This document shows, in pieces, positions 44,995 through 59,135 of a DNA stretch of 64,000 nt. The DNA comes from Galbibacter orientalis DSM 19592. Lineage in GTDB: Bacteria > Bacteroidota > Bacteroidia > Flavobacteriales > Flavobacteriaceae. Below the pieces are notes generated by a model. The model was not told where the DNA came from. It worked only from the letters and a program-made list of their open reading frames with translations, and did not search any database. How positions within the stretch are numbered: the stretch's first letter is position 1; every line of letters starts with the position of its first letter. The translations under genes and the position numbers were made by a program. Where the stretch lies: assembly GCF_000260115.1 (NCBI RefSeq), contig NZ_JH651379.1, positions 3,312,240 through 3,376,239 of the forward strand. Direction: 5' to 3'.

Positions 44995-47900
44995 CTATTT
45001 TACAATTATTTTAAAGTGTTTTACCATTCCTGTTGTTGTTTTACAGTAAAAAACATAAACTCCGGTTTGCGTACCTGTAGGAATTATAAAGTTTGTTAGC
45101 TGTTGTTGGGTCTCCATCTTTTTGATATACTGCCCCGATAAGCTGTGGAGGCTTAGTTGCATCCCTTTTAAATCATTTGGAGGTAAATCAGCATAGACCT
45201 CAACATAACTCCCTGCCGTTACTGGGTTGGGGGTTACGCTTATATTATAGGATTGGGTATGCTCAATGCTGCCTGTACATGTGCTTAAAACATCTCCATC
45301 TTCTGTTGTCATTTCTACTGAATAGCTTGCATTAGGGTCTAGGGAATCTTCTCGGTTTGGTCCTATAGAATAATACTGTCCTGTTCCAATAGCAACTTCA
45401 TTTTTATACCATTGATAGTTTACAAACTTATATCCTCCATTGCTTTCTGGATTATTGTTAACTAACAATGTGTTATTGAATTTTTGGATTACAATTCCGT
45501 CAAAATCAAACTGTTTATTTATTACTATTTCATAGGTTTTGGAACTATTTCCATTTTGTGGGGTCACCGTTATTGTTTGTCTATAGATACCTGGCTTAGG
45601 GGTTTCTATAGTAAATAAATTTCTAGGAATAACCGTAGTATTGGCTTTTGCTAAGACCTCAATCTCTATAGAAGTTGCTCCATTATTACAATCCATTAGG
45701 TAGTTAATAGTGTTTGGCGGATTGTCAAAAGAGACACTACCTATTTTAATTGCTGCTATATCAGGAATGGTTGATGGTGCCTCATTCACAGTAACTATAG
45801 CAGTACATATATCTGTATTTCCAGCAGCATCCTCTACAGTTAAGGTTACCATATTATCTCCTAGATTTGTATTATTAAACGTATTTTGAGAAATGCTCAT
45901 TGAAGCGATTCCGCAATTATCGCTACTTCCATTATCGATATCATCTGCAGTTATACTTACATTTCCATTGGTATCGAGTTGAACCGTAATGTCTTGACAC
46001 ACTACTGTTGGTTTTGTACTGTCTTCAACAACAATAGCTACCGATGCAGTTGCGGTACATCCATTAGCGTCAGTTACCGTTACAGAATAAGTCCCTGCGG
46101 TTAAGCCTACCATATCTTCAGTGGTAGCATCGTTGCTCCATTCAAAGTTATAAGGCGCTACCCCGCCAGTAACGGTTAAATCTATTGTTCCGTTATTGCC
46201 GCCGTTACAGCTAACAGGAGTTGTGACAATACTGGCTGATAATGCTGTTGGTTCACTTACCTCTGCTGAAGTGGTTGCGGTACATCCATTAGCATCGGTT
46301 ATAGTTACAGAATACGTTCCAGCAGTTAAGCCAGTCAAATCTTCAGTGGTTGCGTCGTTAGTCCATTCAAAGTTATAAGGTGCTATTCCGCCAGTAACGG
46401 TTAAATCTACTGTTCCGTTATTGCCGCCGTTACAGCTAACAGGAGTTGTGACAATACTGGCTGATAATACTGTTGGTTCGTTTACCTCTGCTGAAGTGGT
46501 TGTGGTACATCCATTGGCATCGGTTATGGTTACCGAATAAGTTCCTGCGGTTAAGCCAGTCAAATCTTCAGTGGTTGCGGTGTTACTCCATTCAAAACTA
46601 TAAGGCGCTATTCCTCCAGTAACGGTTAAATCAATTGTTCCGTTGTTTCCGCCGTTACAGCTTACAGGAGTTGTGACGATACTGGCTGATAATACTGTTG
46701 GTTCGTTTACCTCTGCTGAAGTGGTTGCGGTACATCCATTGGAATCGGTTATAGTTACAGAATATGTTCCTGCGGTTAAGCCAATCATATCTTCAGTGGT
46801 AGCGTCGTTACTCCATTCAAAACTATAAGGCGCTATTCCGCCAGTAACGGTTAAATCTGCTGTTCCGTTATTGCCGCCGTTACAGCTAACAGGAGTTGCG
46901 GTGATACTAGCTGATAATACTGTTGGTTCGCTTACCTCTGCTGAAGTGGTTGCGGTACATCCATTGGCATCGGTTATGGTTACAGAATACGTTCCAGCAG
47001 TTAGGCCAGTCAAATCTTCAGTAGTAGCGGTGTTGCTCCATTCAAAACTATAAGGCGCTATTCCGCCAGTAACGGTTAAATCTGCTGTTCCATTGTTTCC
47101 GCCGTTACAACTTACAGGGGTTGCAGTTGCACTTGCTGAGAGCACCGGTGACCCTTCTTGCAACTCATAGGCTCCCATATCTATTTTATCGACTGTAGGG
47201 CAACCATCAAATAAACGAGCATTTCCTGCTAAATCTACATCATCGACTAAAGTTAAATTTCCATTTACATTGGTGTATAGCGTATTGTCTCCTTTATTTA
47301 CAACCACAAAGCTTCCTTCTTTTAAACTATAATCGCCATTAGTAGGGGCGTTAAAAATGTCTGAAACTGAAATATCTGTGGCATCTATATTTCCATTTGT
47401 ATCATCATCATTCCCTTCAATAATAGAATTTTGTGCTTGATAACTTCCCGTTATTCCACCCCAGACAATACAGTTATGTATATTTGGATTAGAAGTGTCT
47501 GCATTGTGCATTCCGTTACTTCCATTAGTATCGCTATTATTAGCTACTGTACTATTGACAAAAGTAGGAGAGGAGTTGGTTACATTGTAAATTGCTCCGC
47601 CAATGTTAGTTGCTGTGTTACCTATAAGGGCTACATTTATTAATATAGGATTAGAATTGTCTTGGCTAGCTATAGCACCGCCGTCTTTTGCTTTGTTATT
47701 TTTAAATATAATATTACGAAGTGTTGGCGATGACTGATAGCTAAACATCCCTCCACCAGATTCTGTATTATAATTTCCAATCACTAAAAGATTTTCATAA
47801 CTAGGCGATGAAATAGAATTATAAATACCCGCTCCTGAACATTGGTAAATAGGATTCCCATTTACCGTAATATCGTCATTGTATTCTCCATTAGCTCCAC

Positions 47901-49809
47901 TTATTGTAAACCCATTTAATAATGCTTTGCCTGCATCACTACTACTCACTATTACTCTAGTTAGATTTTCTGAATTATTAGTAAAATCGTCTCCATCGTC
48001 ATTGTTTACATCTGCACTTAAAATGGTGCCATTAGTACCTGTACTAGGAAGAATACGCTCATCATTTAGGGTATTGATATTATTGCTAGGATCGAAGCCC
48101 CCATACACTTGTACGTTTTTGACCATTAAAAAGCTATTGTCGCGCTCCTGATCTGTTCCAAAATTACTGTCTTTTGGGCTGTACAAGGGCTTATAGGTAC
48201 CTATGGATACATATATTTTTAAAGGTGTATTCTCCCAGTTAGCATCTTCATTTATTTTAGCCCATACTAAAGCATCGGCAAGTTCTGTGATGGCGTTTTC
48301 CCAAGAATTTCCGCTACCTATTCCTGTAGCATCTTTATCTACATACAAAATGTTGTTAGCATCTGGGATGAAGGGTGCAGGCTCCGTTACTTCCGCAGAT
48401 GTGGTTATAGTACATCCGTTGACATCGGTTACCTTTACGTTGTAGGTTCCAGCGGTTAATCCAGTCAAATCTTCAGTAGTAGCGGTGTGGCTCCAATCAA
48501 AACCATAAGGTGTTGTTCCGCCAGTTACGGTTAAATCAATTGTTCCGTCGTTTCCGCCGTTATAACTAACAGGGGTTGCGGTGATACTGGTTGATAATGC
48601 TGTGGGTTGGGTAATAGTTGCACTAGCCGTAGCCGTACATCCGTTGTTATCGGTTACCGTTACTTCATAGTTTCCAGCACTAAGTCCAGAAGCAGTAGCT
48701 GTTGTTTGGGCAGAACCGTCATTCCACAAATAAGTATAAGGAGATGCTCCGTTTGCTGGGGTCACTGTTAATGACCCTGTTGAGTTTCCATAACAGGCTA
48801 CATTGGTTTGTGATGTAATAGAGGCCGTCATGGTACATGCAGGAGTAGTAAAACTCTCTTCACTTCCATAACTTGTGCTTTCACTATTGATTGCATAGGC
48901 ACGAACATAATACTCAGTATTTGCGGTAAGTCCTGTAATTTCACCAGAAAAACTCCCGTCGCCAGAACCTATTTGTACTTTGGTATTAGCCGTTGTTGGT
49001 GTGCCTGTGGTGTTGTAAACAATACCGCGTTCGGTTACCGTAGCTCCACCGTTGTCGGTTATATTACCACCAAGGGTTGCAGTGGTAGCAGTAATGCCAG
49101 AGGCTGCTGTGGTGGTTACGGTTGGGGTGGTGTTGGAAGAAGGAGCGACAGTATTTCGAAAATCAATAGATGTGATCGTAAAATTATCAGGCGAACTATT
49201 ATGAACTTCAATAATAATTTCTGCAACGCCTATAACTGGTAAAGAATTATTGGTTGTAAAAAAGCTTCCAATAGAGATTTCTGTCTGTCCTAAAGACGTA
49301 ACACCAGTCATAGTTTTTATGATGTTACCATCTTTATCTTTCAAAGTTAAGGAAGTCCCTGAATAATCAGATTGAGCTCCAAAACTATATATAGTCATAT
49401 CATATAGGTCGAAAGATGCTGCATCTACTTCGTCGGCCTTAAATATAAGTGTTTCGACATTGTTATAATCACTATTAGAACCATAAAGTTCTCCTCCTTC
49501 AATGGTCAAATTGTTACTTACTACTAGTTCCGGGAAATTGGTGGTTTTAAAACCAGGACCTCCGGAGTCTGCTGCTCCCAGAGATGTAAACGTTGCAGGA
49601 GGCATAGCATTTTCTTCCAAAGAATTTCGAAAAACAGCTTCTTTAATGTTGTTAATATTTTCTTCTTCAACAAAACATGTATTTTTGTTTTCTAAACTAC
49701 TTTTAATGGTAGTTGTAGTAAAAGAAGAAGTGCTGACTACCGTAATTAATAAAATAAGAAGACTTAATTTTTTACGTAGGTTTACAAACGCTTGAGATTT
49801 ATTTTTCAT
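44995..49809 (-). CDS. Giant SprB-repeat cell-surface protein with T9SS sorting domain
   Basis: 1604 residues. Order: signal peptide (1-31); a jelly-roll-like N-terminal domain (about 60-220); a fibronectin-like domain (about 228-323); SprB-type repeats (about 325-475); a parallel beta-helix/choice-of-anchor-Q region (about 485-885); five near-identical 76-residue SprB repeats (about 886-1260, each with PVSCNGGNNGT, GGIAPYSFEW and GTYSVTITDANGC); a HYR-like domain (about 1263-1343); and a type IX secretion C-terminal domain (about 1516-1604, SVTPNPV start, KHFKIIVK end). Secreted through the T9SS to the cell surface, likely for adhesion or gliding. The repeats are also nearly identical as DNA, 228 bp per unit. 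Confidence 0.9.
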   Translation of the reverse strand: MKNKSQAFVNLRKKLSLLILLITVVSTSSFTTTTIKSSLENKNTCFVEEENINNIKEAVFRNSLEENAMPPATFTSLGAADSGGPGFKTTNFPELVVSNNLTIEGGELYGSNSDYNNVETLIFKADEVDAASFDLYDMTIYSFGAQSDYSGTSLTLKDKDGNIIKTMTGVTSLGQTEISIGSFFTTNNSLPVIGVAEIIIEVHNSSPDNFTITSIDFRNTVAPSSNTTPTVTTTAASGITATTATLGGNITDNGGATVTERGIVYNTTGTPTTANTKVQIGSGDGSFSGEITGLTANTEYYVRAYAINSESTSYGSEESFTTPACTMTASITSQTNVACYGNSTGSLTVTPANGASPYTYLWNDGSAQTTATASGLSAGNYEVTVTDNNGCTATASATITQPTALSTSITATPVSYNGGNDGTIDLTVTGGTTPYGFDWSHTATTEDLTGLTAGTYNVKVTDVNGCTITTSAEVTEPAPFIPDANNILYVDKDATGIGSGNSWENAITELADALVWAKINEDANWENTPLKIYVSIGTYKPLYSPKDSNFGTDQERDNSFLMVKNVQVYGGFDPSNNINTLNDERILPSTGTNGTILSADVNNDDGDDFTNNSENLTRVIVSSSDAGKALLNGFTISGANGEYNDDITVNGNPIYQCSGAGIYNSISSPSYENLLVIGNYNTESGGGMFSYQSSPTLRNIIFKNNKAKDGGAIASQDNSNPILINVALIGNTATNIGGAIYNVTNSSPTFVNSTVANNSDTNGSNGMHNADTSNPNIHNCIVWGGITGSYQAQNSIIEGNDDDTNGNIDATDISVSDIFNAPTNGDYSLKEGSFVVVNKGDNTLYTNVNGNLTLVDDVDLAGNARLFDGCPTVDKIDMGAYELQEGSPVLSASATATPVSCNGGNNGTADLTVTGGIAPYSFEWSNTATTEDLTGLTAGTYSVTITDANGCTATTSAEVSEPTVLSASITATPVSCNGGNNGTADLTVTGGIAPYSFEWSNDATTEDMIGLTAGTYSVTITDSNGCTATTSAEVNEPTVLSASIVTTPVSCNGGNNGTIDLTVTGGIAPYSFEWSNTATTEDLTGLTAGTYSVTITDANGCTTTTSAEVNEPTVLSASIVTTPVSCNGGNNGTVDLTVTGGIAPYNFEWTNDATTEDLTGLTAGTYSVTITDANGCTATTSAEVSEPTALSASIVTTPVSCNGGNNGTIDLTVTGGVAPYNFEWSNDATTEDMVGLTAGTYSVTVTDANGCTATASVAIVVEDSTKPTVVCQDITVQLDTNGNVSITADDIDNGSSDNCGIASMSISQNTFNNTNLGDNMVTLTVEDAAGNTDICTAIVTVNEAPSTIPDIAAIKIGSVSFDNPPNTINYLMDCNNGATSIEIEVLAKANTTVIPRNLFTIETPKPGIYRQTITVTPQNGNSSKTYEIVINKQFDFDGIVIQKFNNTLLVNNNPESNGGYKFVNYQWYKNEVAIGTGQYYSIGPNREDSLDPNASYSVEMTTEDGDVLSTCTGSIEHTQSYNISVTPNPVTAGSYVEVYADLPPNDLKGMQLSLHSLSGQYIKKMETQQQLTNFIIPTGTQTGVYVFYCKTTTGMVKHFKIIVK
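46020..47150 (-). repeat. Five 228-bp tandem repeats inside the adhesin gene
   Basis: The landmark TGCGGTACATCCATT recurs at a 228-bp spacing (46047, 46275, with a TGTGG variant, 46731, 46959). Units keep frame, so copy number can change by recombination without destroying the gene. Two more diverged copies lie at 48380-48850. Confidence 0.9.
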
Positions 49810-53375: not shown

Positions 53376-55154
53376 ATGGCTGAAGCAAAAGAAAACACAG
53401 CACAAAAAGAAACTATTTCTCAGGAAGAGTTTTTACAAAATTTTAACTGGCACAACTACCAAGAAGGTATTGACCAAGTTGAAGATGCTAAATTAAAAGA
53501 ATTCGAAAACTTAGTTGAAGAGAACTTCGTAGATACAGCAGATGAAGAGGTTGTAGAAGGAACTGTAGTTCACTTAACAGACAGAGAAGCGATTATTGAT
53601 ATCAACGCGAAGTCTGAAGGGGTAATCTCTTTAAATGAGTTTCGTTACAATCCAAACTTAAAAGTTGGAGACAAAGTAGAAGTTTTAATCGACGTTCGCG
53701 AAGATAAAACTGGTCAGTTAGTATTATCTCACCGTAAAGCCAGAACTATCAAGGCTTGGGATAGAGTTAATGCTGCACATGACAAAGCAGAGATTGTTAA
53801 CGGTTTTGTTAAATGCAGAACTAAAGGTGGTATGATTGTAGACGTATTCGGTATCGAAGCGTTCTTACCAGGATCTCAAATAGATGTAAAGCCTATTCGT
53901 GATTACGATGCTTACGTTGGAAAAACAATGGAATTCAAAGTGGTTAAAATTAACCATGAGTTCAAAAACGTTGTTGTATCTCACAAAGCACTTATCGAGG
54001 CAGATATCGAAGAACAGAAAAAAGAAATCATCGGGCAGCTTGAAAAAGGTCAAGTTCTTGAAGGAACCGTTAAGAACATTACTTCTTACGGGGTATTCAT
54101 CGACCTTGGTGGCGTAGATGGTCTTATCCATATTACAGATCTTTCTTGGTCTCGTATCAATCACCCTAATGAGGTTGTTGAATTAGATCAGAAATTAAAT
54201 GTTGTAATTTTAGACTTTGATGATAACAAATCTAGAATTCAATTAGGTCTTAAACAATTACAGAAACACCCATGGGAAGCTTTAGGTGATGAAGTAAAAG
54301 TTGGTGATAAAGTTAAAGGTAAAGTAGTTGTTATTGCAGATTACGGTGCATTTATTGAAGTAGCTGATGGTGTTGAAGGACTTATCCACGTTTCTGAAAT
54401 GTCTTGGTCTACACACTTACGTTCGGCTCAAGATTTCGTTAATGTTGGAGATGAAGTAGAAGCAGTGGTTCTTACTCTAGATCGTGAAGATCGTAAAATG
54501 TCTCTTGGAATTAAGCAATTAACTCCAGATCCATGGACTGATATTACTACTAAATATCCTGTAGGTTCTAAGCACACAGGAATTGTACGTAACTTTACAA
54601 ACTTTGGTGTATTTGTTGAATTAGAAGAAGGAATTGACGGGTTAATTTATATCTCTGACCTTTCTTGGACTAAGAAAATTAAACACCCATCTGAATTTGT
54701 AAACGTTGGAGACAAATTAGAAGTTGAAGTTCTTGAATTAGATGTTGAAGGACGTAAATTAAGCCTTGGTCACAAACAAACTACAGATAACCCTTGGGAT
54801 AAATACGAAGCAGAATTTGCTGAAGGAACTATCCACAATGCAGAAATTTCTGAGATTGTAGACAAAGGTGCTACTATCGAATTCAACGAAGATATCGTTG
54901 CATTTGTACCTTCTCGTCATTTAGAGAAAGAAGATGGTAAGAAGTTGAAAAAAGGAGATACTGCCGATTTCAAAATCATTGAGTTCAATAAAGAATTCAA
55001 AAGAGTAGTAGCTTCTCATACAGCTATCTTCAAAGCCGAAGAAGAGAAAAACGTTAAGGCTGCTGCAAAACGTAGCAACCAAGCGGAAAAAACAACCCTT
55101 GGTGATGCTAATGCTGAGCTTCAAGCGTTGAAAGATAAAATGGAAGGGAAATAA
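53376..55154 (+). CDS. rpsA: 30S ribosomal protein S1
   Basis: 592 residues with six S1 RNA-binding domains: two degenerate ones (about 60-190, VVEGTVVHLTDREAIIDI; GFVKCRTKGGMIVDVFGI), then four clear ones starting at about 225 (GTVKNITSYGVFIDLGG), 311 (GKVVVIADYGAFIEVAD), 396 (GIVRNFTNFGVFVELEE) and 485 (AEISEIVDKGATIEFNE). It brings mRNA to the ribosome. Codon choice is visibly more optimised than in neighbours. Full length, single-gene unit with its own promoter and terminator. Confidence 0.96.
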   Translation: MAEAKENTAQKETISQEEFLQNFNWHNYQEGIDQVEDAKLKEFENLVEENFVDTADEEVVEGTVVHLTDREAIIDINAKSEGVISLNEFRYNPNLKVGDKVEVLIDVREDKTGQLVLSHRKARTIKAWDRVNAAHDKAEIVNGFVKCRTKGGMIVDVFGIEAFLPGSQIDVKPIRDYDAYVGKTMEFKVVKINHEFKNVVVSHKALIEADIEEQKKEIIGQLEKGQVLEGTVKNITSYGVFIDLGGVDGLIHITDLSWSRINHPNEVVELDQKLNVVILDFDDNKSRIQLGLKQLQKHPWEALGDEVKVGDKVKGKVVVIADYGAFIEVADGVEGLIHVSEMSWSTHLRSAQDFVNVGDEVEAVVLTLDREDRKMSLGIKQLTPDPWTDITTKYPVGSKHTGIVRNFTNFGVFVELEEGIDGLIYISDLSWTKKIKHPSEFVNVGDKLEVEVLELDVEGRKLSLGHKQTTDNPWDKYEAEFAEGTIHNAEISEIVDKGATIEFNEDIVAFVPSRHLEKEDGKKLKKGDTADFKIIEFNKEFKRVVASHTAIFKAEEEKNVKAAAKRSNQAEKTTLGDANAELQALKDKMEGK

Positions 55155-55177
55155 TAATTTTCAATTCATTTAAAAGT

Positions 55178-55205
55178 AAAACCCTCCAACTCGGAGGGTT
55201 TTTTT
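55178..55205 (+). terminator. Rho-independent terminator of rpsA
   Basis: Stem AAACCCTCC / GGAGGGTTT with loop AACTC, then a run of T, 25 bp after the stop codon. Confidence 0.95.
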
Positions 55206-55236
55206 ATGCTTTAAAACTCTTCTTTTTTTACCCACA

Positions 55237-56077
55237 GTCATGTCGACCAGCGGGAGACATCTCATTATCAAAAACACTTTGGACTAAATACCCTAAACAA
55301 TTAATAAGAAAAGTTTTCTTTATAAGATTTCACTGTAATAATAGGACAAGCTCCAGAACAATCAAATCTCTGTTATTCTGTAGGTGTGATTTCTCCTTTC
55401 AGTCGAAATGACTAAAGCTTCACAGTCATGTCGACCATCGGGAGACATCCCATTATCAAAAACACCTTGGACTAAATACCCTAAACAATTAATAAGAAAG
55501 GTTTTCTTTATAAGATTTCTCTGTAATAATAGGACAAGCTCCAGAACAATCAAACCTCTGTTATTCTGTAGGTGTGATTTCTCCTTTCAGTCGAAATGAC
55601 TAAAGCTCCACAGTCATGTCGACCAGCGGGAGACATCTCATCACCCGAATATTTTTGAGCTAAATAGCAGAGATGCGATTTCTCCTTTCAGTCGAAATGA
55701 CTAAAGCTCCACAGTCATGTCGACCAACGGGAGACATCCCATTATCAAAAACACCTTGGACTAAATGCCCTAAACAATTAATAAGAAAAGTTTTCTTTGT
55801 AAGATTTCTCTGTAATAATAGGACAAGCTCCAGAACAATCAAATCTCTGTTATTCTGTAGGTGTGATTTCTCCTTTCAGTCGAAATGACTAAAACACCGC
55901 AGTCATGTCGACCAACGTGAGACATCTCATTATCAAAAACACCTTGGACTAAATACCCTAAACAATTAATAAGAAAAGTTTTCTTTATAAGATTTCACTA
56001 TAATAATAGGACAAGCTCCAGAACAATCAAATCTCTGTTATTCTGTAGGTGTGATTTCTCCTTTCAGTCGAAATGAC
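55237..56077 (+). repeat. REPIN-like array, left block (five copies)
   Basis: Copies at 55237-55412, 55425-55600, 55613-55701 (short form), 55714-55889 and 55902-56077. Each starts GTCATGTCGACC, then a GGGAGACATC box, and ends GATTTCTCCTTTCAG then TCGAAATGAC. The two ends are inverted repeats of each other over about 25 bp with few mismatches. Neighbouring copies are separated by 12-bp spacers of the type TAAAGCTYCACA. Four are long (176 bp) and one short (89 bp, centre replaced by a different AT-rich stretch). Small ORFs seen across copies follow the DNA repeat and are not genes. Confidence 0.9.
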
Positions 56078-56376
56078 TAGATTATATCATTATTCAATGT
56101 TTCCCACTTAGGGTTGAAATTTTGAATCAAAATGTTCTTTTTTTCACGACGCCACTTTTTTAATTCTTTTTCTCTTTGAATAGCTTCGCTCGGTGTTTCA
56201 TATCCCTCATAATAAACCAAATAGATACATTAATACTTTCCTGCAAATGATTTTTTAGCATTTTGGCTATCAAAATAATGTTGGGATAATCTCCTTTGAA
56301 TATTGTTTGTCATTCCAATATATAAAGTAGTTCGATACTGATTGGTAGTTATATAAACAAAGTATTTGTAAAACAT
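56077..56376 (-). pseudogene. GIY-YIG nuclease gene, inactivated by a nonsense codon
   Basis: Nearly identical over its length, without indels, to the intact gene at 57859-58158. Codon 49 is TAA (56232-56230) where the other copy has AAA (Lys), and codon 2 is TTT instead of CTT. The break falls just after the SFAGKY segment, so only the first half would be made. Its stop codon begins with the last base of the array element ending at 56077. An IS982-family element lies 29 bp upstream of its start and may have removed its promoter. Confidence 0.92.
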
Positions 56377-56398
56377 GTATTAAAATAGCGAATTAGAA

Positions 56399-57379
56399 TA
56401 AAATAACCCGTTGTGCATTTAGGCAATATTGATTTTTAGGTTATTGATATTTCTGTTGAATTCAAATATGTTTATATATTGAATGACCGTCATAGCCGTA
56501 ATCTTAGATAATATTCTGTTTTTGAATCCCTCAAAAGATTTAGCATAATTCCTTCGAATCATAAATTGGTCGCAAAGTTGAGAAAACAATGTTTCAATAC
56601 GCTTTCTGGATTTCTTAAAAACGTACGGCTGCTCCCTATAGTTATGCTGGTTTGTTCTCATAGGGGTTTCAAGTCTAATATTATGATATTCAAATAAATT
56701 CAATTGATATTCAGCCGACAAATACCCTTTATCACCAAGTAATATGCAATCACTTAATTGATGCTTTATATCCTTTAAATAATTAATATCGTGCACAGAG
56801 GCTGGACTAATATCCATACTTTCGATAACACCCTGAGCAGAACAGACAGCATGTAATTTATATCCATAATAATGGCTTGATTGACTTGCACAATATCCTT
56901 TTTCGGGCAGACTGTAGTTTTGTTCTTTACATATCTTACTTCTAGCGCTTCTTGATAATTTACAGACCTCTAACGGCATACTGTCAACAATATAACAATG
57001 CTCAGATTTATTCAACTTTCTCACTAATGCCTTGCGAAGTGATTCTCTAAAAGAAAACAACTTACGCTTTCTTCTATTGTAGACACTGCGCTCTATTTTG
57101 CTGGATAGACCAGCAGGTAACATTCGAAAAAGCTGGCATTCACTATCAACACTCATATATTCTGATGTTAAATCAATAGCTATAAGCTCTTTATCTCTTA
57201 ATTTAGGTTTACGGATTTGATGTAAATAATCCATTTTACAATCCAATTCTTTTAAAACCTTGAGGATTTTGTCGTAATTTGCTTGAAAGTTGTGCATATA
57301 AATTATAGTGTGGTTACTACAATTTACTGCATTTTAGCAGTTTGCACAACTTTTTCTAAATGCACAACGGGTTAAAATA
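56399..57379 (-). mobile_element. IS982-family insertion sequence with 7-bp target duplication
   Basis: The IS spans 56406-57372 (967 bp), bounded by perfect 17-bp inverted repeats starting ACCCGTTGTGCATTTAG. TAAAATA is duplicated at 56399-56405 and 57373-57379. The uninterrupted target is preserved beside the second GIY-YIG copy (about 58180-58195), which confirms the borders. It is intact, has one transposase gene and looks recent. Confidence 0.95.
56419..57297 (-). CDS. IS982-family transposase
   Basis: 292 residues, full length for the family. N-terminal helical domain (about 1-100, with DSECQLFRMLP, RSVYNRRKRKLF), then a DDE catalytic domain: Asp in YIVDSMPLEVC (about 105), Asp in LLGDKGYLSAEY (about 197) and Glu in KSRKRIETLFSQL (about 235). 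It acts on the terminal ACCCGTTGTGC repeats. No frameshift, so it should be active. Confidence 0.93.
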   Translation of the reverse strand: MHNFQANYDKILKVLKELDCKMDYLHQIRKPKLRDKELIAIDLTSEYMSVDSECQLFRMLPAGLSSKIERSVYNRRKRKLFSFRESLRKALVRKLNKSEHCYIVDSMPLEVCKLSRSARSKICKEQNYSLPEKGYCASQSSHYYGYKLHAVCSAQGVIESMDISPASVHDINYLKDIKHQLSDCILLGDKGYLSAEYQLNLFEYHNIRLETPMRTNQHNYREQPYVFKKSRKRIETLFSQLCDQFMIRRNYAKSFEGFKNRILSKITAMTVIQYINIFEFNRNINNLKINIA

Positions 57380-57413
57380 ATTGATTAATAAATAAATTTA
57401 TTTCTATTCCACA

Positions 57414-57859
57414 GTCATATCGACCAACGGGAGACATCTCACCACCCGAGTATTTTTAAGTTAAATAACATGGATGTGATTTCTCCTTTCACCTCACAGT
57501 CATGTCGACCAGCGGGAGACATCTCATTATCAAAAACACTTTGGACTAAATACCCTAAACAATTAATAAGAAAAGTTTTCTTTATAAGATTTCTCTGTAA
57601 TAATAGGACAAGCTCCAGAACAATCAAATCTCTGTTATTCTGTAGATGCGATTTCTCCTTTCAGTCGAAATGACTAAAGCTCCACAGTCATGTCGACCAG
57701 CGGGAGGCATCTCATTATCAAAAACAGCTTGGATTGAGCGCTCTAAACATTAACAAGAAAGTTTTCTTTATAGAACTTTTTATAAGAATACGACAGAATC
57801 TAGAACAATCAAATCTCTGTTATTCTGTAGATGTGATTTCTCCTTTCAGTCGAAATGAC
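57414..57859 (+). repeat. REPIN-like array, middle block (three copies)
   Basis: 57414-57491 is short and lacks the right terminal GTCGAAATGAC; 57499-57674 is a long copy (176 bp); 57687-57859 is a diverged long copy (173 bp) with a different centre. The last base of the third copy is the first base of the complement of the GIY-YIG stop codon. Confidence 0.88.
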
Positions 57860-58158
57860 TAGATTATATCATTATTCAATGTTTCCCACTTAGGGTTGAA
57901 ATTTTGAATCAAAATGTTCTTTTTTTCACGACGCCACTTTTTTAATTCTTTTTCTCTTTGAATAGCTTCGCTCGGTGTTTCATATCCCTCATAATAAACC
58001 AAATAGATACATTTATACTTTCCTGCAAATGATTTTTTAGCATTTTGGCTATCAAAATAATGTTGGGATAATCTCCTTTGAATATTGTTTGTCATTCCAA
58101 TATATAAAGTAGTTCGATACTGATTGGTAGTTATATAAACAAAGTATTTGTAAAGCAT
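57859..58158 (-). CDS. Single-domain GIY-YIG nuclease
   Basis: 99 residues, UPF0213-like. GIY position FVYIT (about 6-10), YIG in LYIGMTNNIQRRLSQH (about 18-33, with Arg28/29), and the catalytic Glu region AIQREKELKKWRREKK (about 79-94), then NPKWETL. Such small GIY-YIG proteins are DNA-nicking or cutting enzymes. It occupies the place of a spacer between two array elements, and its TAG stop shares one base with the element to its left. A broken twin with the same context is at 56077. It may process the surrounding palindromes; this is inference. Confidence 0.88.
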   Translation of the reverse strand: MLYKYFVYITTNQYRTTLYIGMTNNIQRRLSQHYFDSQNAKKSFAGKYKCIYLVYYEGYETPSEAIQREKELKKWRREKKNILIQNFNPKWETLNNDII

Positions 58159-58221
58159 GTATTAAAATAGCGAATTAGAATAAAATAATTGATTAATAAA
58201 TTTATTTATTTCTATTCCACA

Positions 58222-59135
58222 GTCATGTCGACCAACGGGAGACATCTCATCGCCGAAAATATTAATGAGTTAGCAGAATGCGATTTCTCCTTTCAGTCGA
58301 AATGACTAAAGCTTCACAGTCATGTCGACCAACGGGAGACATCTCATCACCCGAATATTTTTGAGTTAAATAACAGGATGTGATTTCTCCTTTCACCTCA
58401 CAGTCATGTCGACCAGCGGGAGACATCTCATCACCCGAATATTTTTGAGCTAAATAATATGGATGTGATTTCTCCTTTCACTCCACAGTCATGTCGACCA
58501 TCGGGAGACATCACATTATTAAAAACACCTTGGACTAAATACCCTAAACAATTAATAAGAAAAGTTTTCTTTATAAGATTTCTCTGTAATAATAGGACAA
58601 GCTCCAGAACAATCAAATCTCTGTTATTCTGTAGGTGTGATTTCTCCTTTCAGTCGAAATGACTAAAGCTCCACAGTCATGTCGACCAACGGGAGACATC
58701 TCATTATCGAAAGCAATTTGAATTGAACACCCTAGACATTGACAAAGAAGCCTTTTTTATAGATTTCTCTGTAATAATAGGACAAGCTCCAGAACAATCA
58801 AATCTCTGTTATTCTGTAGATGTGATTTCTCCTTTCAGTCGAAATGACTAAAGCTCCACAGTCATGTCGACCAACGGGAGACATCTCATTATCAAAAACA
58901 TCTTGGACTAAATACCCTAAACAATTAATAAGAAAAGTTTTCTTTATAAGATTTCTCTGTAATAATAGGACAAGCTCCAGAACAATTAAATCTCTGTTAT
59001 TCTGTAGATGTGATTTCTCCTTTCAGTCGAAATGACTAAAGCTTCACAGTCATGTCGACCATCGGGAGACATCTCATCACCTTAAATATTAATGAGTTAG
59101 CAGAATGTGATTTCTCCTTTTATACTCGAAATGAC
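58222..59135 (+). repeat. REPIN-like array, right block (seven copies)
   Basis: Copies: 58222-58306 (short), 58319-58396 and 58403-58481 (short, right end truncated to ...CTCCTTTCAC), 58488-58663 (long), 58676-58848 (diverged long), 58861-59036 (long) and 59049-59135 (short). All are in the same orientation. The last one ends at the base before the photolyase stop codon (59136). Confidence 0.9.

Follow-up and report, generated by a model that had tools for sequence, protein, structure and literature searches.

The locus described here raises the question of which enzyme serves a family of short palindromic repeats. It lies in a stretch of 64,000 nucleotides of Galbibacter orientalis DSM 19592 (contig NZ_JH651379.1, positions 3,312,240 to 3,376,239; 'the window' hereafter means this whole stretch), where an array of elements with palindromic ends occupies positions 55237-59135 of the forward strand and holds two copies of a small GIY-YIG nuclease gene. 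The array is bordered on one side by the terminator of rpsA and on the other by a photolyase gene. We interpret the elements as REPINs, that is, paired and inverted repetitive extragenic palindromic (REP) sequences, of the superfamily of REPs headed by GTC or CGTC, and a clade of single-domain GIY-YIG proteins as their dedicated partner nuclease, a reading to which we give a probability of about 0.7. It is directly supported by the position of the gene, the matching of protein clades to motif types, covariation in the stem, conserved catalytic residues and empty sites.

Each end of an element is a 25-mer consisting of GTC, AT with three further bases, a loop, the three complementary bases with a second AT, and a C. 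When up to three mismatches are allowed, the genome (4.5 Mb) contains 116 matches to it, 63 on one strand and 53 on the other, and none to the reversed pattern. To assess covariation, the pattern GTCATnTCGA...GAGAnATC, which leaves both partners of the third stem pair unspecified, was applied to the window and to 68 loci of the family. This free pair is complementary in 260 of 263 cases (38 sources), as opposed to 144 expected from base frequencies, and in 110 of 113 when distinct sequences are counted, with T-A, G-C, A-T and C-G pairs all present; in the cross-phylum set (GTCATnCC...GGnATC) it is complementary in 274 of 279 cases, with 168.5 expected. The hairpin is therefore conserved as a structure, a conclusion drawn from the free pair, given that the AT at the start of the stem is imposed by the search pattern and so is not independently measured. 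Eight further regions of the genome carry the unit (L033-L040, near 722, 937, 2861, 2959, 3069, 3433, 3454 and 3535 kb of G000:C1), and several of these are tandem arrays with periods of their own (about 98, 100 and 120 bp), as if amplified locally. The GIY-YIG gene is absent from all eight, since a genome search with the window protein at E<=0.001 returns the two genes of the window as its sole matches.

Units were sought near GIY-YIG genes of other genomes with a detector that demands GTC, AT, any three paired bases, AT and C, and leaves the other stem letters free. The family sample comprised 60 loci, one per genome and chosen by protein match, with 67 genes found in them by tblastn; G007, G106, G269, G194 and G232 were left out for short contigs or contig ends, G013 was passed over, and the flanks of 26 of the 60 loci were known before the detector was written. 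Fifteen plasmid loci and 80 cross-phylum loci were fetched later, the latter selected by protein pattern alone as the best 80 of at least 581 relatives. Within 150 bp, a unit is found beside 55 of the 67 family genes (reversed control, 0/67) and 71 of these best 80 cross-phylum genes (reversed control, 3/80); when a stem of at least 7 is required, the cross-phylum figure becomes 72/80 and that of its control 0. Unit density falls from 6.62/kb at 0-100 bp to 0.08/kb at 3.2-8 kb in the family loci, and from 6.22/kb at 0-100 bp to 0.13/kb beyond 3.2 kb in the cross-phylum loci. Control open reading frames (ORFs) more than 1 kb away in the same loci have a unit near them in 46 of 484 cross-phylum cases (9.5%) and 49 of 518 family cases, so the odds for the GIY-YIG genes exceed those of the controls about 75-fold and 44-fold, respectively.

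By record titles, the cross-phylum sample covers about a dozen phyla overall, with Alpha-, Beta- and Gammaproteobacteria, deltaproteobacterial groups, Sulfurovum, Anaerolineae, Planctomycetes, Nitrospirae, Ignavibacteria and Bacteroidetes, as well as one cyanobacterium, Omnitrophus, Deferribacteres, Rifleibacterium, Myxococcota and four candidate-phyla groups. Relatives of the nuclease across this range adjoin repeats of the same layout, and the link is thus wider than was proposed when the array was first described. The arrangement seen most frequently has the gene enclosed by two inverted units whose GTC heads point outward (25/80 cross-phylum, 19/67 family); under the same arrangement rule, 13/80 and 7/67 genes have no unit on either side. 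On plasmids, a unit lies within 150 bp in nine of the 15 loci fetched from 33 records, and that of Photobacterium stands at +174; inspection by eye, post hoc and left uncounted, found a CTC head or a non-AT stem in the plasmid loci of S. meliloti, R. tumorigenes, Novosphingobium and one Sphingobium. The association follows the clade. No unit lies within 300 bp of any of ten small GIY-YIG genes outside it, which score 16-80 bits with the clade profile and comprise E. coli yhbQ and nine genes of two genomes from the host genus; a small GIY-YIG gene scoring 148 bits does have one at such a distance. Three loci may be mentioned separately: L113 (G255) has several near-identical GIY-YIG copies within a few kb, L132 (G000:C1:342509-343022) consists of two similar neighbouring GIY-YIG ORFs of a different clade and without repeats, and L140, from Planktothrix, has a GIY-YIG gene with GTCATTCTGA units on its flanks in the MmeI-drmA interval of a DISARM defence locus.

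The motif type was also compared with a protein tree, which covers 163 proteins and 102 columns, leaves many forks unresolved, and has 142 rows labelled by the four bases following GTCATN. Motif type changes 37 times on it, compared to 83.2 in shuffles, with none of 500 shuffles as low, although the shuffles ignore host kinship. The result repeats within the family (18 changes, 32.3 shuffled) and across phyla (16 changes, 23.3 shuffled), again with 0/500 shuffles each; a three-base label, tried first, gave 49 changes. Two clades were compared with two motifs over 299 family genomes: clade A, which is that of the window and goes with a TCGA-type motif, and clade B, with a CTGA-type motif. All 23 genomes with clade A have the TCGA-type motif, at a median of 12 copies, as do 77 of the 276 others, where the median is 0; the CTGA-type motif occurs in 36 of 37 genomes with clade B and 69 of 262 others, figures to be read with the knowledge that the motif patterns and both clade cut-offs were set after flanks and listings were known, and that the cut for clade B, 138 bits, falls at no clear gap.

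Copies beside the gene inflate such a match, and for this reason those in the sequence retrieved around each clade gene (8 kb on either side, contig permitting) were removed; the copies that remain are called distant. Distant TCGA-type copies remain in 20 of the 23 clade A genomes (median 5), compared to 77/276 others (p 2.8e-8), and distant CTGA-type copies in 32 of the 37 clade B genomes, compared to 69/262 (p 1.9e-12). With all copies counted, the crossed pairs of clade and motif are weak or absent: one gives 7/19 and 62/243 (p 0.21), and the opposite one 16/33 and 61/243 (p 0.006, rising to 0.68 at >=5 copies). In nine genera represented by one genome with clade A and one without, distant copies are more numerous with the clade in six and equal in two. 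The partnership of nuclease and repeat suggested in the preliminary description thus withstands the comparison of genomes, both with all copies (23/23 against 77/276) and with distant ones (20/23), and its concern that the repeat might be equally abundant where the clade is missing is answered by the same 77/276 clade-less genomes with the motif.

The protein matches Pfam PF01541 (GIY-YIG) with E 1.6e-16. A set of 42 sequences shows no variation at Y8, Y19, G21, R29, H33, E69 and N88, which belong to the catalytic residues of the GIY-YIG superfamily. An AlphaFold2 model made from the 42 sequences reaches a predicted local distance difference test (pLDDT) score of 92.9, and was used in place of a single-sequence prediction dropped at pLDDT 50. 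The model resembles UPF0213 BH0048 (1zg2), Slx1, UvrC and I-TevI, with a best E of 2.1e-3 and no match reaching 0.001; comparison of sequence with solved structures gives 1YWL (E 1.8e-5) and, more weakly, 1ZG2 (E 0.09) as the closest chains. A defence role for the gene was considered and dropped because PADLOC returned marginal matches alone.

Comparison of related genomes shows sites where the repeats and the gene are missing. Of five photolyase loci found in the same genus four were compared, and in two of these rpsA and the photolyase gene adjoin without the array (in G300, 61 bp separate the aligned blocks); at the remaining two loci, the DNA beside the photolyase gene gives no alignment with rpsA. 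In Azospirillum lipoferum 4B, the interval between sufB and sufC holds a REPIN, a GIY-YIG gene and a second REPIN, an insertion absent from all four congeners examined. Presence of the clade is patchy within genera, and some copies of the gene have internal stops.

Within the array of the window, the 15 left ends (GTCAT[AG]TCGACCA) are accompanied by 12 right ends (TCGAAATGAC), all elements having the same orientation (+). Twelve are complete, namely seven of 176 bp (55237-55412, 55425-55600, 55714-55889, 55902-56077, 57499-57674, 58488-58663 and 58861-59036), two of 173 bp (57687-57859 and 58676-58848), and one each of 89 bp (55613-55701), 87 bp (59049-59135, with a degenerate right end) and 85 bp (58222-58306). 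The other three, short and with approximate ends (57414-57491, 58319-58395 and 58403-58480), lack a right end and run directly to the next left end. Nine spacers measure 12 bp (TAAAGCT[CT]CACA, with one variant), and enlarged ones hold both GIY-YIG genes, on the minus strand at 56077-56376 and 57859-58158. These differ at two of 300 nucleotides. The first is a pseudogene on account of a stop at codon 49, and the second is intact, encodes 99 amino acids with the catalytic residues conserved, and is separated from the next element by a leader (58159-58221, minus strand). Both genes end in TAG, and the G of this stop codon doubles as the outer G of the adjoining element (the 176-bp element ending at 56077 and the 173-bp element ending at 57859). 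The intact gene is flanked by two complete REPINs, unlike the commonest arrangement elsewhere. Upstream of the pseudogene lies an insertion sequence (IS) of the IS982 family (56404-57374, minus strand, transposase at 56419-57297), with inverted ends and, by eye, a 7-bp direct repeat, TAAAATA, on either side. The preliminary description was right about the single orientation and the base common to stop codon and element; its fifteen elements correspond to the left ends, with right ends and complete copies numbering twelve, its near-identical gene pair includes one pseudogene, and it had overlooked the IS982-family element. Farther off, at 44995-49809, a minus-strand ORF of 1604 amino acids, in which repeated domains (PVSCNGGNNGT...) make up most of the length, probably encodes a large surface protein, and the sole match of an Rfam scan is a sub-threshold Phe_leader at 55143-55207.

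Repeats of this general kind have been described before. CGTC-tagged REPs are reported from five phyla as a superfamily that includes dRS3 of Neisseria and RPE-4 and RPE-6 of Rickettsia, and are said to 'apparently lack' a dedicated transposase (Di Nocera, De Gregorio, Rocco 2013, PMC3733652). Our units share with them the GTC head, AT as the first two stem pairs, high copy number and head-to-head dimers, with 116 units in the genome and 12 complete inverted pairs in the window. Among 327 units from the 80 cross-phylum loci, GTC is preceded by C in 245 and by T in 67, so most of these relatives carry C or T there as in PMC3733652, and many cross-phylum units also fit the described stem, loop and tail (e.g., GTCATTCCCGCGAAAGCGGGAATC). 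In 423 units from the 60 family loci, the base before GTC is T 222, A 111, C 55 and G 35 times. The units of the window differ from the described type in starting with AGTC rather than CGTC, TGTC or CCTC, and in having a 5-bp stem, a long loop and a TCA tail instead of a stem of 8-9 bp, a loop of 4-5 nt and a CCA tail. A further difference is that a GIY-YIG gene adjoins here, whilst that paper reports no dedicated enzyme and its main text does not contain 'GIY'. As the preliminary description had supposed, we found no account of GIY-YIG proteins paired with such repeats in the open full-text literature, judged by titles and starts of abstracts among the matches listed and with most subscription papers and all preprints outside its range; nor does GIY-YIG appear in it together with 'repetitive extragenic palindromic', or with CGTC and palindromic.

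Other known systems resemble this one in part. RAYT/REPIN systems likewise have short palindromes in inverted pairs, many copies without a gene and few repeat-flanked enzyme genes, but their enzyme is an HUH tyrosine transposase and not a GIY-YIG nuclease, and their head is GTAG instead of GTC. The single-domain UPF0213/YhbQ proteins have the same fold and catalytic core, but E. coli YhbQ scores 27 bits, as opposed to at least 92 for members of the REP-linked clade, and has no such repeat nearby. GIY-YIG homing endonucleases such as I-TevI share the selfish spread with a GIY-YIG nuclease, whereas the window protein consists of nothing but a nuclease domain of 99 amino acids, and its gene has hairpin repeats for neighbours. 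Slx1 has a GIY-YIG domain and acts on branched DNA, and we know of no association of it with repeats. It differs from the window protein in carrying a zinc-finger domain in addition and in working with a partner protein, Slx4 (PMC7017083).

In our reading, the GIY-YIG clade is to CGTC-type REPs what RAYT is to GTAG REPs. The gene with its flanking REPs would likely be the autonomous form, and REPINs without the gene its non-autonomous relatives, served in trans. The enzyme may recognise the folded hairpin, be it a cruciform or a single strand at a fork, by its head, its AT pair and a stem sequence specific to the clade, and would cut it by hydrolysis; host repair of the cut might then copy or amplify the element, giving rise to tandem arrays and to REPINs scattered over the genome. 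Our best inference is that the hairpin is the substrate of the enzyme. Spread of the repeats by the nuclease is likely, and is the least secure part of the proposal; it is argued for by distant copies that track the gene, by the empty sites and by the patchy distribution. As for the broader idea that this clade represents the missing mobilising enzymes of the CGTC-type superfamily across bacteria, we hold it to be slightly better than an even bet.

Several observations weigh against the proposed partnership. Twelve of the 67 family genes and nine of the 80 cross-phylum genes, including that of the Myxococcota locus, have no unit within 150 bp, and the L113 locus of G255, with three identical GIY-YIG copies, has none within 300 bp. 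Three of the 23 clade A genomes are left with no distant copy, one of the nine genus pairs is reversed, with fewer distant copies where clade A is present, and G036, G164, G186 and G282 hold 12-29 TCGA-type copies and are absent from the GIY-YIG match list; in these four the repeats may be orphaned, or the gene may be lost, diverged or not assembled. The p-values given above are too small, because patterns and cut-offs were partly post hoc and the genomes are related. Folding of the elements as DNA, proposed as a check in the preliminary description, is favourable for the 89-bp element end to end (z -2.9) and weak for single units of the window (z -1.0 and -1.0), with -1.7 for the 85-bp element, -0.7 for a 176-bp element and -0.6 for a truncated one; the case for the hairpin is accordingly built on covariation rather than on folding energies. 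At the empty sites, spacers are too diverged to place the ends of the insertion, and target-site duplication is thus not demonstrable at two loci. We know of no covalent intermediates of GIY-YIG enzymes like those of HUH transposases, which makes the integration step guesswork, and mobility, like the activity of the enzyme, is presumed.

How do other explanations fare with the same evidence? The main rival is a free-standing GIY-YIG gene of the homing type that lands in existing REPs, cutting them and being copied into the break, while the REPs themselves spread otherwise. It is compatible with the known presence of GIY-YIG domains in homing endonucleases (PHROG 5123, and the fold match to I-TevI) and with the place of the intact window gene and of the Azospirillum gene, each between two complete REPINs, and clade-specific stems would suit the target specificity of such an enzyme equally well. 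Nevertheless, distant copies are commoner in genomes with the matching clade, so that a parasite of this sort must settle where REPs already abound, and no other dedicated enzyme is reported for CGTC REPs (PMC3733652); we therefore regard it as unlikely, if worth keeping in mind. Distinctly less probable is a nuclease in the service of the host, one that trims or resolves extruded REP cruciforms and stabilises arrays without spreading them. Slx1, a structure-specific nuclease of branched DNA, is indeed among the nearest folds, but a gene that is patchy within genera, has internal stops in some copies and, with its REPINs, sits between sufB and sufC in one Azospirillum and in none of four congeners looks mobile, not housekeeping.

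The gene could also be a passive hitchhiker among the repeats, or small mobile genes might in general have repeats near them. REPs, like such genes, tend to lie in intergenic DNA; odds of about 75-fold (cross-phylum) and 44-fold (family) over ORFs of the same loci, co-segregation of protein and stem, GIY-YIG proteins of other kinds without REPs and invariant catalytic residues nonetheless make such an accident very hard to credit. Hardest of all to credit is a RAYT located elsewhere in the genome that moves the repeats, as happens with GTAG REPs: the genome does have one Y1_Tnp domain match (G000:C1:1762815), but no unit is detected in 5 kb of sequence spanning that gene, and no CGTC repeat was reported to flank a tyrosine transposase gene (Di Nocera 2013, PMC3733652).

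Reading the elements as REPINs served by a GIY-YIG partner turns the question of the missing enzyme of CGTC REPs into a testable one, reduced to a candidate protein of 99 residues and a hairpin of 25 bases. If it is true, many proteins labelled merely 'GIY-YIG nuclease family protein' would acquire a function, and the RAYT/REP system would have a second, chemically different counterpart, in which short hairpin DNA would spread by hydrolysis and without a transposase, each nuclease clade reading the stem sequence of its own repeats.

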